From Candidatus Scalindua sp. (GTDB lineage: Bacteria; Planctomycetota; Brocadiia; Brocadiales; Scalinduaceae), in the NCBI GenBank assembly GCA_021776915.1, contig JAIQZU010000003.1:1-64000 (forward strand): a stretch of 64,000 nt of DNA. Reading direction: 5' to 3'. Each line of letters opens with the position of its first letter. Position 1 is the stretch's first letter. Of this stretch, positions 56,086 to 64,000 are shown piece by piece. A program made the position numbers and the translations under genes. The notes beneath the pieces are model-generated. The model was given only the letters and a program-made list of their open reading frames with translations. It made no database searches and was not told where the DNA came from.

Positions 56086-56982
56086 ATGTCGTACAGATTC
56101 TTTTGTGTTTCTTTCATTTTGATTTTGACAATGTGTACAGAGACGTATGCTGATACTTTAAAGCTGGAGGGATTTGGAGAAAAGATTGATGTAAAGATAC
56201 TCGAAATGAATGAGGAGTTTATTAAGGTTGTTGTCCCTCAAAGAGAGATTGGTTCGCTAGGTATCAAATCACAGGATGACGATAAATATCCGGATACAGT
56301 CTTCATAAAAGTTGATGACAAAGAAGGTAAGGTGATTTGTAAGATTGTGAAAATAACTAAAGAACCAGGAAGTATTACATTGCAAATCCCCAGAGAGAAG
56401 GTTTCTGCAATACAGATAGCCTTTCCCGGCACTGAGCAGGATACGGACAGTAATCAGAGGGGTTCCTCAGATGAACGCAGGAAAGAGAGCGTGCCTCCAC
56501 CAGTAGATACTGAAAGGTTAAAAGAACAGATAAAAGAAGAGTTAAGGCTTGAGTTTGAAAGAAAGCAGGGTAAAGGTGATATTGCAATTGAAGAAAAAAT
56601 AAAAGAAGAATTAAGGCTTGAGTTTGAGGATAAAAAGCAGATGGACGAGGAGTTATTTGAGGTAGAGAACTACGGCAAGGTGACAGGCCGTATGCTTGCT
56701 AAAGGCAAGCCTCTTCCGGGGTGTCAGGTAAAAATAATGATGTTGGAAAAATGGGGAATATTTGGCAAGCCAAAGGAAGGTTTAAGATTTGAAACAATTA
56801 CAGATGAGAATGGACGTTATCTTTTTGAAAAAGTACCTCCCGGCGGGTACAAAATATACTGGAAGCCACCCGGCGAAACTTCCTGGATCAGGAGCATTAA
56901 GATGGAGCCGGAAATCTTTGTAGAAGCGGGAGAGACTTATCATTTCCGTGATAGAGAGACAAATATAAGAACGGTAAATTAG
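56086..56982 (+). CDS. Exported protein with C-terminal carboxypeptidase-regulatory-like domain
   Basis: A 298-residue protein with a signal peptide (cleavage near TYADT, about 22). The mature N-terminal part (TLKLEGFGEKIDVKILEMNE, KYPDTVFIKVDDKEGKVICK) is a beta-rich domain of no known family. A charged coiled-coil linker repeats twice the segment IKEELRLEFE (near 147 and 168). The C-terminal part is a beta sandwich like CarboxypepD_reg/SdrB-type domains: GKVTGRMLAKGKPLPGCQVK, ITDENGRYLFEKVPPGGYKI. It probably sits in the periplasm and binds a protein or envelope component. GGAGGGG stands before the ATG. The histidine kinase gene follows at 78 bp, so a sensory accessory role is possible. Confidence 0.72.
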   Translation: MSYRFFCVSFILILTMCTETYADTLKLEGFGEKIDVKILEMNEEFIKVVVPQREIGSLGIKSQDDDKYPDTVFIKVDDKEGKVICKIVKITKEPGSITLQIPREKVSAIQIAFPGTEQDTDSNQRGSSDERRKESVPPPVDTERLKEQIKEELRLEFERKQGKGDIAIEEKIKEELRLEFEDKKQMDEELFEVENYGKVTGRMLAKGKPLPGCQVKIMMLEKWGIFGKPKEGLRFETITDENGRYLFEKVPPGGYKIYWKPPGETSWIRSIKMEPEIFVEAGETYHFRDRETNIRTVN

Positions 56983-57060: not shown

Positions 57061-59286
57061 ATGACTATTAGAGTTAAAAGCCTGTTATGGTTCCTGCTTC
57101 CTTTTATTTTAATCGCAACTGTAACGGCGACATTTTGGTATTTCTATACCCACAAAACAGTAAAAAAGAATATTTTTGATCAATTGGAAATAGCTGCTGA
57201 TGAATTGAAGAAACACGTAAATATTTTTTTAGAAGGGAAAAGAGGGAGAATCATTGACTTCAGCTCTGATGGTTTTGTCAGAGATTGTACAGAAGAGATA
57301 ATCTTAAGAAAAGAGAGGATTCCGTATTGTACTGACCGCTTAAATACGCACCTTACTCTGAACAAGAAACCGCTTGATCCTGATATCCTTGCGGTGTTTG
57401 TCGTTGACCTCGATGGCAAAGTATTCAGTTCAACAGATAATGAACAAATTGGCAGAGATATCTCAGGTGAAACATGGTTTTCAGAGACAATGAGTAGTGG
57501 TTTTTACATAAGCGATATAAAATTGTCTTCAGAATTTGAACAAAGTACATTCTTTGATGTAGCAAGATTACTATTGACCAATGACGGTCTGCATACCATA
57601 GGCATAATAGCAAACAGATACAGAGGTGACAGTTTTAGAAAAATCACCCGCAGTGGAATAATAGGGGAATCCGGGCAGGAGATACCACTGGAAGGATTAG
57701 GAGAGACAGGAGAGGTGTATATTGTAAACAGTGACGGGTTAATTATAACTGAATCAAGATTCAATAATGATGTCGTGTTTAAACAGGTTGTTGATACAGA
57801 AGGTGTCAGGGCTGCATTCGATAATGAAGTGGGTATGACTGGCATATATACCGGCTATAAAGGTCATCAGATACTTGGTGTATCCCGGTATATTGAGAGG
57901 ATGGGTTGGGTGGTGCTGGCAGAAAAGAGCATCTCCGAGGCTTTCGCTCCACTTACAAGGGTGAAAATTTTTACCATCATTATGGGTTCAGTGGGCATAA
58001 TAGTTATATTAGCAATTGCAACCTTTTTTTCCAATATGATAACAAGGCCTATCACCTCACTGGCTTTAGCTGCAGACGACATAGCAAATGGTAATTTAAA
58101 AGGCATAGAAGGAATTAAGTCCAGAGATGAGATAGGCAATCTGGCAGATTCTTTTAACAAGATGACCATAGACTTGAGAAGATTCAGAGATGATCTGAAA
58201 CAATCGGAAGAAAGGTATCGGGGGTTGATTGAAAATTCCTCAGAGATTATCTACCAGACAGATCAAAAGGGATTCTTTGCAGGTATGAACAAAACAATGT
58301 TAGATAAACTTGGGTATTTACCTGAAGAGCTTATGGGAATGAAAATAGAAAATATTGTGCCTGTTATTGAGCGTGAGAAGATAACAAGTCATATCCGGAG
58401 GGTAATTGGAAAAGGTAGCGACTTTATGGAAACAATGTTTCTCTCCAGGCAGGGAGAGATAATATATGTTGAAATCAATGCTAACGCCATGTATGATGCA
58501 AAAAAACGATGTATAGAGACAAGGGCGTTCGTTCGTGATATTACAGAAAAAAAGAAGGCAGAGGCATCGGAAAAGCACGAGAAGGAGTTACAGCTATTGT
58601 CTTCGCACATAATCTCCATCCAGGAAAAAGAGAGAAGGCGAATCTCCCGGGAACTTCACGACGAAGCGGGACAGGCGCTCACAGCCATGAAAATTAATAT
58701 AGAGATGATGGAAAAAAATATTCCTGGAAGCGCAACAAATATCAGAGAAAGACTTGCCGAAACAAAGCAGCTTGTAATACATACCTTGCAGGAAATGCGA
58801 TCGCTCGCATTCGACCTCAGGCCTTCATTGCTCGATCATTTTGGCGCCCTGGCGGCGATAAGAGAATATTCAAAGAACTATTCTGATAGAACTAATATAA
58901 ACGTACAGGTTCGAGGCGAAAATATTGTTGAAAGATTTTCTCCTGAGATAGACATCCTTTTATATCGTTGTGCACAGGAAGCTTTAAACAATGTAGCAAA
59001 ACATTCCGAAGCAACAGGTGTTATAATAGAAATTGTACAGGAGGAGCAGGAAGTCTGTATGAGGATAAAAGATAACGGTAAGGGGTTTGATATAGTAGAT
59101 CCTTTTGAGGGAAATATGAATGGTTCAGGTATCGGCTTATTCGGTATGAGGGAAAGAGTGGCTCTCCTGAATGGGAGTATAAGAATACATTCAGAAGAAA
59201 ATAAGGGTTCAGAAATAGAGATCCTTGTGCCTTTTATTAAAACTAATAATGAAAACCGTTCTTCTGAGGTGGCTGAAAATGTCTAA
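57061..59286 (+). CDS. dCache-HAMP-PAS sensor histidine kinase (NarL/DegS type)
   Basis: A 741-residue membrane sensor. TM1 8-28, an extracytoplasmic dCache-like domain (about 38-295, with VFVVDLDGKVFSSTDNEQIG and YIVNSDGLIITESRF), TM2 303-324, HAMP 325-380, PAS 385-497, HisKA_3 with ISRELHDEAGQALTAM (phospho-His533) and HATPase with EALNNVAKHSEATG, DNGKGFD and GIGLFGMRERV to about 727. It senses a periplasmic ligand and phosphorylates the response regulator encoded next, whose start overlaps its end by 8 bp (ATGTCTAA). The ligand is unknown; the exported protein upstream and the multiheme cytochrome downstream are possible context. Confidence 0.92.
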   Translation: MTIRVKSLLWFLLPFILIATVTATFWYFYTHKTVKKNIFDQLEIAADELKKHVNIFLEGKRGRIIDFSSDGFVRDCTEEIILRKERIPYCTDRLNTHLTLNKKPLDPDILAVFVVDLDGKVFSSTDNEQIGRDISGETWFSETMSSGFYISDIKLSSEFEQSTFFDVARLLLTNDGLHTIGIIANRYRGDSFRKITRSGIIGESGQEIPLEGLGETGEVYIVNSDGLIITESRFNNDVVFKQVVDTEGVRAAFDNEVGMTGIYTGYKGHQILGVSRYIERMGWVVLAEKSISEAFAPLTRVKIFTIIMGSVGIIVILAIATFFSNMITRPITSLALAADDIANGNLKGIEGIKSRDEIGNLADSFNKMTIDLRRFRDDLKQSEERYRGLIENSSEIIYQTDQKGFFAGMNKTMLDKLGYLPEELMGMKIENIVPVIEREKITSHIRRVIGKGSDFMETMFLSRQGEIIYVEINANAMYDAKKRCIETRAFVRDITEKKKAEASEKHEKELQLLSSHIISIQEKERRRISRELHDEAGQALTAMKINIEMMEKNIPGSATNIRERLAETKQLVIHTLQEMRSLAFDLRPSLLDHFGALAAIREYSKNYSDRTNINVQVRGENIVERFSPEIDILLYRCAQEALNNVAKHSEATGVIIEIVQEEQEVCMRIKDNGKGFDIVDPFEGNMNGSGIGLFGMRERVALLNGSIRIHSEENKGSEIEILVPFIKTNNENRSSEVAENV

Positions 59287-59935
59287 AATCAAGGTGTTAC
59301 TGGCGGATGATCACACTATAGTAAGGCAGGGTTTAAGGGCCCTTCTAGATTCTCAAGAAGATATCGAGGTAGTTGGAGAGGCGAAAGATGGAAGGCAGGC
59401 ATTTGAGAAAACGAAAGAACTGCTCCCTGATGTAGTAGTAATTGACATTACTATGCCAAATCTTAATGGAGTTGAAGCAACACGTCAGATTAAGAAACTG
59501 AATCAGGAAATTAAGGTACTGGTTCTGACAGTGCATGACAATGAAGAGTATGTACATCAAATCCTTCAGGCAGGAGCCTCCGGATATCTACTCAAGGAGT
59601 CGGCAGTATCAGACCTGGTTTCAGCAATAAATGCCGTAAAAGAAGGAGATATATTTTTAAGCCCTTCAATTTCTAAAGTAGTTGTTAAAGATTATATAAG
59701 ACATGCTGTGGATGGGTCAGGGGATTTTGATAGTCTGGATGTGCTCACCGGTCGGGAACGTGAAGTATTACAGTTAATCGCTGAGGGCCACACAAACAGG
59801 GAGGTTGCCCACAATCTTAAGTTAAGTGTAAAGACTGTTGATGTCCACAGGTCTCACATAATGGAGAAACTTAATATACACGATATAACAGGTCTCGTAA
59901 AATATTCAATTAGAAAAGGACTTATAAAGTTTTAG
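59279..59935 (+). CDS. NarL/FixJ-family response regulator
   Basis: A 218-residue two-domain regulator. Receiver: KVLLADDHTIVRQGLRALLD with the acidic pair D10/D11, VVVIDITMPNLNG with phospho-acceptor Asp56, GYLLKES with the conserved lysine. C-terminal LuxR HTH (about 150-212): LTGREREVLQLIAEGHTNRE, VAHNLKLSVKTVDVHRSHIM. ATG 59279 overlaps the kinase stop (ATGTCTAA) and fits the receiver start; an upstream GTG/ATG reading adds 18 non-family residues. Cognate partner of the upstream kinase. Its targets are unknown; no clear half-sites were found ahead of the cytochrome gene. Confidence 0.94.
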   Translation: MSKIKVLLADDHTIVRQGLRALLDSQEDIEVVGEAKDGRQAFEKTKELLPDVVVIDITMPNLNGVEATRQIKKLNQEIKVLVLTVHDNEEYVHQILQAGASGYLLKESAVSDLVSAINAVKEGDIFLSPSISKVVVKDYIRHAVDGSGDFDSLDVLTGREREVLQLIAEGHTNREVAHNLKLSVKTVDVHRSHIMEKLNIHDITGLVKYSIRKGLIKF

Positions 59936-61262: not shown

Positions 61263-64000
61263 ATGAGCAAAAGGGAAGAAGAAAAATCATATGTGGTTTT
61301 GTACGTAGTGTTAAGCTTTATACTTGCATCCACAAACGTATGGGCATTCTGGAATGAAATTGTAGGTAAAAGGCCATGGAAAGATTATCAAAATCGCTTT
61401 TATGAGCTGGAATACGAAAATGCAGAAAAGAAATATGAAGATGCTGTATTGGCTTTTGGGCAACCTGATAAACAGTATATCTACAAGGCGTTCGAGAAAA
61501 AGCTAAATGAGGCAAAGGAAGAGTTTGAGAGACCGGCTACACAGTACAAATATAAAAAGGCATTAGAAGAATTACACGCTTTGGATAGGGATGAGTTGGC
61601 GCCGCTAACATTTGAATCAATAGTTACACGTAATAAGATGCTGGAAGAAGAATACAAGTATGGCAAGTACAAGAGAGAGGAATCAAAGAAAAAGATAGAG
61701 GAAATGGATAAAAAGATAAAAGAACTAGCTGAAAAAATTAAACATATTGAGGAGAAGAGAACCGGGTTGCAAAAGGAAATAGACGGGCTTACGAGTAAGA
61801 TTACGAGGTACACAAAGGAATTGGAGTCACATTCGAGTAACATGCTCAAATATAAGGATGCTATGGTTAATTTAGGGTCGAGACGTCCACAGTTGCAGGT
61901 ATACCAGGTGCATCTTGATGAACTGAATAAGGTAGATAGGTGTATGTCCTGCCACGTGGGTATAAATGAAAAGGAAAGCATTTCTGAAGAGCAGCCTTAT
62001 AGCCGCCATCCAAGGAGAGAAGTGTATCTAGGTAATCATCCGCCTGAGCAGTTTGGTTGTGCATTGTGTCATGAAGGGCAGGCAAGAGCAACGACAAGTC
62101 CAAAAGAGGCACATGGTGAGGTTGGATATTGGTTGGAACCTATGAATAGGGGCAAGATGGCGCAATCTTCATGTATAAAATGTCATGATAAAGGCGAAGA
62201 GTTGGCGGGAGGCGAGGAGCTTTGGAAAGGGATAAAGTTGTTTGAGGAGCTGGGATGTTTTGGTTGTCATGCGACAGATGGATTTGGTGAAGATGAAAAC
62301 AGGACGATAGGGCCTGATTTGACGGAGACAGGCAGAAAGGTTAATCCGGGATGGTTGGTTTCGTGGTTAAAGGGGCCTAAGAGTTTCCGGGCAAGTACGA
62401 GGATGCCTGATTTTAAGTTTGAAAAAGATGAAGCTGAGTCTATAGCCGCTTACCTCTGGCAGAATTCCGGAGATACAGGCGTTGAGAATGAAAGAGAATT
62501 TAATGAGGATATGATAGAAGAGGGTGGGTATATATTTGAGGATGTCGGTTGCCTGGCATGTCATAGCGATGAAGAAGATAGCGGCAGAACACATGGGCCA
62601 AATCTTGCCAGGATTGGCGAGAAGATGAACTATGATTACCTGGTTAGCTGGTTATTAGATCCAAAGCAACATCAGCCGAAGACAAGAATGCCAGATTTTC
62701 GGCTGGATGAGAATGATGCAGAATTATTAGCAGCGTATTTGATGAGTTTAAAGAGTGAAGAGTACGAAAAACCGGCAGAAGAGGCTGGATGGTTGAATGA
62801 TAGTAGAACGGCAAAAAGAGGAGAAAAATTAGTAAGCAGATATGGTTGTTTTGGTTGTCATGAGATGCGGGGCATGGAAGGGAAATCCAATATAGGCGCA
62901 GAGCTTTCAGAGGTAGGTTCTAAACATATACATTTGTTTGATTTTGGTTTATCGGAGAAGGAATTGCTTCAAGAAGCCGGCCTGAAATATTCTCATGAGA
63001 ATATCGGAGAGGCCAGGCGTGCCTGGATAATGGCAAAATTAGCGGATCCGAGACAATTTGATAAAGGAAGGTATAAGAGGCCGGAAGATAGATTAAGAAT
63101 GCCCAATTTCGGTCTAACCGAAGATGAAATCGGAGCGCTATCAATACTGCTGGCAGGAATGAGAGAAGATGAAATGTCAGGGAGTTATGTGTATAAACAG
63201 ACAGAGAAACAGAGGTATTTGGCAGAGGGTAAGAGGGCAGTTGAAAAGTATAATTGTATGGGTTGCCATCAGTTTACTATAGATAAATTGTATTTGGAGG
63301 ACGGCACAGAGGTAAATGGTATGGTTAAACTTGAGGAGGAGGACAGCTTATACTTTCAGTTATGGGAGGATAATGATAATTTGGACCGGAAGGCAGGAGA
63401 GACGGCCCAAATAATGAAGGAACAGATAAAGGGCAGAAAGAGGTCTGAGGGGGGAGAAATAGCTTCATTTATAATAGATTATCATGTAGAGGAAGAGGGA
63501 AGATTGCCGGAAGAGGCCAAGGTATTTACACCACCGGTACTCTATGGGGAAGGCAAAAAGGTACAGTCTGAGTGGTTATTTAAATTCCTCAACAGGCCGA
63601 TTAACCTGAGGCCATGGCTTGATGTAAAAATGCCAACGTTTAAATTTTCAGGGAATGAAGCTTCGCTTATTGTAAGATATTTTGCTGCAATGGATGAGCA
63701 GGAATACCCTTACGAGTTTCATAAGGAGACAGACAAGGGATATATGAAAGAAAAAGAGAGGGAAAATCCAGGTTATCTGGCAAGGGCAAGGAGTCTATTT
63801 GAGTCCAGGGACATAAACTGTGCGTCATGTCATGTCAGGGGAGATATAACACCAGAGGGAGATCCTTCAGATTGGGCGCCTGATTTATCACTGGCAAGCA
63901 AAAGATTAAAACCGGGTTGGATAGTAAGATGGTTGCTGAATCCGCAATTGATCCAACCCGGCACAAAGATGCCAAGTTTTTTTAGAAAAGATGCATTTCA
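61263..64000 (+). CDS. Large membrane-anchored multiheme c-type cytochrome, 3-prime part beyond window
   Basis: Open from ATG 61263 to the window edge, 912 codons seen. One N-terminal hydrophobic segment (about 10-30, VVLYVVLSFILASTNVWAFW), a long charged coiled coil (about 125-215), then heme-binding CxxCH motifs at residues 227 (CMSCH), 266 (CALCH), 304 (CIKCH), 332 (CFGCH), 430 (CLACH), 529 (CFGCH), 665 (CMGCH) and 853 (CASCH). The last five each head a class I-like cytochrome module closing with a distal-ligand motif (RMPDF, RMPDF, RMPNF, KMPTF, KMPSF). The first three lack such Met motifs and may be bis-His. It would carry electrons outside the membrane. Copies of the module suggest internal duplication. 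Start supported only by frame, with a weak ribosome site. Confidence 0.88.
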   Translation, partial: MSKREEEKSYVVLYVVLSFILASTNVWAFWNEIVGKRPWKDYQNRFYELEYENAEKKYEDAVLAFGQPDKQYIYKAFEKKLNEAKEEFERPATQYKYKKALEELHALDRDELAPLTFESIVTRNKMLEEEYKYGKYKREESKKKIEEMDKKIKELAEKIKHIEEKRTGLQKEIDGLTSKITRYTKELESHSSNMLKYKDAMVNLGSRRPQLQVYQVHLDELNKVDRCMSCHVGINEKESISEEQPYSRHPRREVYLGNHPPEQFGCALCHEGQARATTSPKEAHGEVGYWLEPMNRGKMAQSSCIKCHDKGEELAGGEELWKGIKLFEELGCFGCHATDGFGEDENRTIGPDLTETGRKVNPGWLVSWLKGPKSFRASTRMPDFKFEKDEAESIAAYLWQNSGDTGVENEREFNEDMIEEGGYIFEDVGCLACHSDEEDSGRTHGPNLARIGEKMNYDYLVSWLLDPKQHQPKTRMPDFRLDENDAELLAAYLMSLKSEEYEKPAEEAGWLNDSRTAKRGEKLVSRYGCFGCHEMRGMEGKSNIGAELSEVGSKHIHLFDFGLSEKELLQEAGLKYSHENIGEARRAWIMAKLADPRQFDKGRYKRPEDRLRMPNFGLTEDEIGALSILLAGMREDEMSGSYVYKQTEKQRYLAEGKRAVEKYNCMGCHQFTIDKLYLEDGTEVNGMVKLEEEDSLYFQLWEDNDNLDRKAGETAQIMKEQIKGRKRSEGGEIASFIIDYHVEEEGRLPEEAKVFTPPVLYGEGKKVQSEWLFKFLNRPINLRPWLDVKMPTFKFSGNEASLIVRYFAAMDEQEYPYEFHKETDKGYMKEKERENPGYLARARSLFESRDINCASCHVRGDITPEGDPSDWAPDLSLASKRLKPGWIVRWLLNPQLIQPGTKMPSFFRKDAF

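Follow-up and report, generated by a model that had tools for sequence, protein, structure and literature searches.

A probable octahaem c-type subunit of the R/b-2 Rieske/cytochrome b complex in a Scalindua-type anammox bacterium and its gene linkage to a cupredoxin/bd-like module

The 64,000-nt stretch of DNA analysed here (the window) ends within an open reading frame (61263-63998, strand +) for a long multihaem cytochrome. The question raised by this locus is whether such a protein is a free-standing electron conduit or a subunit of a known complex and, in the latter case, with which partners it might exchange electrons.

Gene, haem motifs and haem ligands

The preliminary description of this DNA had called for the downstream sequence. 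In the same contig the stop was found 50 codons past the window end; the octahaem gene (61263-64151, strand +, 962 aa) is complete at 64151, 151 bases beyond the window, so that just 50 residues are absent from the window. A truncated or artefactual reading frame was ruled out, the gene being complete in the contig and a 69 % identical paralogue being present in the genome. The features of the gene are as follows.

61263..64000 (to 64151 in the contig), strand +: octahaem cytochrome c gene (ORF, contig sequence)
61284..61352, strand +: N-terminal transmembrane anchor, residues 8-30 (hydropathy; predicted helix 4-33)
61374..61877, strand +: helical arm, residues 38-205, with heptad coiled coil only in 139-205 (AlphaFold2, heptad test)
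61941..62186, strand +: tri-haem domain, CxxCH 227/266/304, predicted distal ligands H249, H259 and H284 (motifs, alignment)
62211..62462, strand +: class I module, haem 4 (C332) and M381 (motifs, alignment)
62505..62744, strand +: class I module, haem 5 (C430) and M476, best Pfam Cytochrom_C match (motifs, Pfam)
62802..63158, strand +: class I module, haem 6 (C529) and M613 (motifs, alignment)
63204..63692, strand +: class I module, haem 7 (C665) and M790, with beta insert 674-726 (63282-63440) (AlphaFold2, motifs)
63774..64000, strand +: class I module, haem 8 (C853) and M903 (motifs, alignment)

The complete protein contains exactly eight CxxCH motifs (residues 227, 266, 304, 332, 430, 529, 665 and 853), where at least eight haems had been predicted, and five MPxF motifs (residues 381, 476, 613, 790 and 903). 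Composition-matched shuffles of the octahaem sequence (n=2000) gave a mean of 0.005 CxxCH and a maximum of one, which excludes a chance origin of the eight motifs. The described layout of three closely spaced CxxCH followed by class I modules ending in MPxF was borne out, with exactly five modules whose CxxCH intervals (98, 99, 136 and 188 residues) agree with the separation of 75-190 residues given for them. The transmembrane anchor was likewise found, as a single N-terminal hydrophobic helix (strongest hydropathy window residues 11-29). Besides the window octahaem, with its eight c-haems and one N-terminal membrane anchor, nearly all relatives examined in full also had eight c-haems.

Haem ligands were compared in an alignment of 53 octahaem relatives, including 16 distant planctomycetes outside Brocadiales, and the eight haem sites were almost invariant. 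The only conserved histidines outside CxxCH were H249, H259 and H284, which were present in all sequences. Among the methionines, M381 and M476 were present in all 53 relatives, M613 and M790 in all but for one gap, and M903 in 48. These haem sites, three histidines and five methionines therefore make a set of three bis-His and five His/Met haems a well-supported prediction, as had been proposed for the triplet and the Met-ligated modules.

The number of haems could also suggest a catalytic cytochrome of the hydroxylamine oxidoreductase (HAO) type, such as a nitrite reductase, the more so as an HAO-like octahaem belongs to the related R/b-3 complex (PMC12954380). The octahaem matched no HAO family in Pfam or NCBIfam, five of its haems lie in Met-ligated class I modules, and a conserved candidate sixth ligand was found for every haem, leaving no obvious open catalytic site; we find this reading scarcely credible. 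A decahaem lipoprotein of the MtrC/OmcA type was also rejected, since the Pfam match covers residues 219-312 only (the tri-haem domain), the NCBIfam decahaem model scored far below its cut-off and the octahaem has a membrane helix anchor.

Structure was predicted with AlphaFold2 from an alignment of 33 sequences and without haems, giving a weak model (pLDDT 65, pTM 0.39). The arm was predicted as four helices (38-65, 68-88, 91-136 and 139-205; block pLDDT mostly 80-92). Of the coiled coil of about 90 residues that had been described, the helical arm was retained, but a significant heptad pattern was confined to residues 139-205 (67 residues; reached by none of 5000 shuffles). The model also revealed a beta insert (approximately 674-726) in the haem 7 module, the fourth class I module, which had gone unnoticed before. 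Among PDB structures, the best fold match of this low-quality model was the dihaem cytochrome Kustd1711 (7zs0; E 7e-4). Given the modest model quality, only this consistent fold signal was used; Hfq/Sm-like fold matches were discounted, as they reflect the small beta insert.

Orthology with Kustd1485 and occurrence in Planctomycetota

A homologue with 52 % identity over approximately 935 aa, i.e. over the full length, was found in a complete 4.406-Mb Brocadiaceae genome (L049 10318-13155). It is the last gene of an operon in the order Rieske, cytochrome b (b(N)), FAD/FeS protein, subunit IV (b(C)) and octahaem, and the Rieske protein of this operon is identical over 117 residues to PDB 9rk3, which is Kustd1480 (PMC12954380). 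The operon is therefore Kustd1480-1485 and its octahaem Kustd1485, the large multihaem cytochrome of the R/b-2 complex of Kuenenia stuttgartiensis (PMC12954380). In these complexes, hexa- or octahaem cytochromes stand in the place of cytochrome f (PMC12954380). Named relatives at 59-70 % identity were Candidatus Scalindua, which places the genome in the Scalindua family of anammox bacteria. Judged by sequence, the window octahaem is the marine-anammox (Scalindua-type) orthologue of Kustd1485, a known but unpurified subunit, and it is very probably the octahaem c-type subunit of R/b-2, an unusual quinol-oxidising Rieske/cytochrome b complex of anammox bacteria, in a Scalindua-type organism. The preliminary description recognised no characterised protein with this layout, a view that is not supported, since the complex containing Kustd1485 has been described and modelled (PMC12954380).

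The arrangement seen in Brocadiaceae is widespread. The order Rieske-b6-SUIV-octahaem recurs across Planctomycetota, and elsewhere in Brocadiales and other planctomycetes most loci have the octahaem directly after a SUIV-like b gene. This was the case for 14 of the 16 non-Brocadiales planctomycete loci sampled, where the cytochrome b subunit is split (SUIV-like) or, in L200, fused, and where a cupredoxin-like gene often comes next after the octahaem. One fragment-like planctomycete relative had seven CxxCH; the others kept the eight-haem pattern. The octahaem is therefore no peculiarity of the window but the c-type subunit that is standard in a b6f-like complex of planctomycetes, and its phylum-wide occurrence suggests that such a Rieske/b complex is general in planctomycetes.

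These data bear on the proposal that the protein is a beads-on-a-string wire projecting from the membrane for long-distance electron transfer. Such a wire would be compatible with the eight haems, the wide spacing of the five class I modules and the single membrane anchor, and in several Scalindua genomes CxxCH-bearing porin-like proteins adjoin the gene. The AlphaFold3 model published for the Kuenenia complex, however, shows the long helices of Kustd1485 wound around half of the complex and its haems clustered in twos and threes (PMC12954380), which argues against a mast out of the membrane. The N-terminal 170 residues of the window octahaem were likewise predicted as several helices and not as a single mast, and the gene order found throughout the phylum ties the octahaem to cytochrome b. 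The two structural models make an outward-projecting conduit unlikely, and with the gene order added we consider the wire very improbable.

Three further relatives deserve mention. In Scalindua RBC_AMX3, in-frame stops divide the octahaem gene (L102 9543-12383) into parts of 540 and 337 residues, which may reflect sequencing error or decay. An Acidobacteria MAG (L182 1-2948) carries a relative with eight haems (33 %) and, directly after it, a cupredoxin-like gene (49 %); this may be due to transfer or mis-binning, and the locus was left out of the argument. A fragment labelled 'Neomarinimicrobiota' (L173) looks like a mis-binned piece of Scalindua.

Gene neighbourhood, second copy and the cupredoxin/bd-like module

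The window contig (C13) carries a Kustd1480-type Rieske gene together with those for b(N), the FAD/FeS protein and b(C), located some 15 kb downstream of the octahaem. The order along the contig is octahaem, EB_dh, porins and two-component system, Rieske/b, cupredoxin and bd-like. The octahaem here does not directly follow a SUIV-like b gene, the Rieske/b genes lying 14.8 kb downstream, with EB_dh, porins and a two-component system between the octahaem and the b genes. The bd-like gene runs off C13 and continues on contig C43 with a 141-base exact overlap (L015 9176-10615, L017 3326-5087); as the overlap lies inside this gene, a second complete bd-like module, split by the assembly, is present in the genome besides the one on contig C6. 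Upstream of the octahaem, two features were noted.

56086..56982, strand +: secreted protein, 29 % match to a gene adjoining the bd-like module in a Kuenenia-type genome (sequence comparison), 5 kb upstream of the octahaem
57061..59935, strand +: histidine kinase (57061-59286) and LuxR-type response regulator (59225-59935) (read from translation)

The kinase/LuxR pair may regulate the locus. Downstream, two predicted beta-barrel porins (contig positions 67701-69452 and 75013-76611) carry a CxxCH close to the start of the mature protein; in several Scalindua genomes the first type also lies upstream of the octahaem or the Rieske/b genes. Searches with porin-like neighbours (three against Pfam, the first only against NCBIfam and PDB) gave no match. 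Elsewhere in the genome, a 671-aa octahaem on contig C51 (L016 8655-10670) ends a different Rieske/b operon; it keeps the tri-haem and class I layout and has almost no helical arm.

The second octahaem copy, on contig C6, is 69 % identical to the window copy and heads the operon octahaem-cupredoxin-bd-like-dihaem-monohaem-EB_dh/dihaem-tetrahaem-monohaem. The genes after this octahaem are counterparts, in order, of Kustd1713-1707 from the Kuenenia nxr cluster, the dihaem gene being orthologous to Kustd1711. No Rieske/b genes were found beside the C6 octahaem on its 15.8-kb contig. A phylogenetic tree separated the window copy from the C6 type and joined it to a copy found in the order porin-octahaem-EB_dh in another Scalindua genome, which indicates that the window and C6 copies are old paralogues.

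An octahaem directly preceding the cupredoxin/bd-like/cytochrome module was found in the Scalindua family, in a sister family and in two non-anammox planctomycetes. The whole Rieske/b operon, octahaem and bd-like module form one run in Scalindua SCAELEC01 and RBC_AMX3, and the run is nearly complete in S. rubra. Two genomes of the sister family have the order b(N)-b(C)-octahaem-cupredoxin-bd-like, the Rieske gene being beyond the stretch covered, and the non-anammox planctomycete L196 has Rieske-b(N)-b(C)-octahaem-cupredoxin-bd-like-dihaem-monohaem-EB_dh. A third Brocadiales family (L054 840-6278, L055 and L056) has a DMSO-reductase type II molybdoenzyme with a beta subunit and a NarJ-like chaperone directly upstream of Rieske-b-octahaem-cupredoxin; no bd-like gene was found in these genomes. 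A TPR protein near the Kuenenia-type bd-like cluster was compared as a candidate NxrA, with a negative result.

It could be argued from such linkage that the Scalindua octahaem has been recruited mainly as a subunit of the bd-like module associated with NXR and has ceased to serve Rieske/b. In nine genomes of the family the octahaem heads octahaem-cupredoxin-bd-like without adjoining Rieske/b genes, the present genome yielded a single close R/b-2 cytochrome b against two octahaems and two bd-like modules, and several Rieske/b operons of the family (L106-L108) carry their own, shorter octahaem. However, Rieske/b genes share the contig with the window octahaem, the order Rieske/b-octahaem-bd-like is kept in two sister-genus genomes and nearly so in S. 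rubra, and the ligand and helix features of the octahaem are all kept, so that recruitment of this kind seems rather unlikely. The R/b-2 subunit assignment, which we prefer, has to accommodate a window copy away from the b genes, a C6 contig without Rieske/b, a single close b for two octahaems and, in Brocadiaceae, a bd-like module approximately 200 kb from the octahaem.

Proposed electron path and comparison with known systems

The sequences show the orthology, the number of haems, the conservation of their ligands and the linkage of the genes; the subunit contact, the electron path and its direction are inferred. The octahaem would take the place of cytochrome f/c1 in the Rieske/b complex, held by one transmembrane helix, with its helical arm embracing the complex. 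The tri-haem bis-His domain would lie near the membrane, and the five His/Met haems would form the electron connection between the Rieske protein and its p-side partners, whether soluble or in the membrane. Going by gene order, the most likely partners are the cupredoxin, the di-haem (Kustd1711-type), EB_dh and tetrahaem cytochromes and the bd-like membrane protein, and electrons would pass to or from the cupredoxin, the dihaem and the bd-like module. An electron-transfer role, as the preliminary description had proposed, is supported. Bis-His haems are usually of low potential. The Rieske protein Kustd1480 of Kuenenia, in contrast, has a potential of +335 mV (PMC12954380), so that the order of the haems along the path is not obvious; that of the dihaem Kustd1711 is about +350 mV (PMC11791136).

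The favourable reaction that pulls electrons through Kustd1480-1485 has no proposal in the literature (PMC12954380). The octahaem/bd-like linkage suggests the NXR-associated module as the electron partner of R/b-2, to which the octahaem would wire the Rieske/b complex. This conserved link is the newer point beyond the known identity of the R/b-2 subunit: it provides a testable answer to what draws electrons through Kustd1480-1485, and joins two separately described, unexplained membrane systems of anammox bacteria. More tentatively, the octahaem might link a supercomplex of Rieske/b, cupredoxin and bd-like components (with an NxrC-like EB_dh), wiring the menaquinone pool and an NAD(P) reductase directly to the nitrite/nitrate couple, non-anammox planctomycetes included.

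The window octahaem resembles Kustd1485 in its eight CxxCH, N-terminal anchor and long helices and in having Rieske/b partners of the same type on its contig. Unlike the gene of the Kustd1480-1485 operon, it is separated from the Rieske/b genes by 15 kb, neighbours an EB_dh/dihaem cytochrome gene and has a 69 % paralogue at the head of a bd-like operon. Like the haem 7 module of the octahaem, Kustd1711 (PDB 7zs0; PMC11791136) bears a beta insertion on a cytochrome domain, in its case the C-terminal one, but it has two haems instead of eight. All seven genes of the Kustd1707-1713 module, which includes the bd-like oxidase (PMC3578206, PMC6606698, PMC6423088), lie beside the C6 octahaem, and a second set of this type lies on C13, continued on C43; in Kuenenia the module adjoins NXR without an octahaem. 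An octahaem of the Kustd1485 type, as present here, is not reported for the Nitrospira CIII_1 region in the corresponding section of PMC6606698. In that account, Rieske/cytochrome b, bd-like and alternative NxrC genes lie together, as they do here, and it is proposed that complexes III and IV form a supercomplex (PMC6606698).
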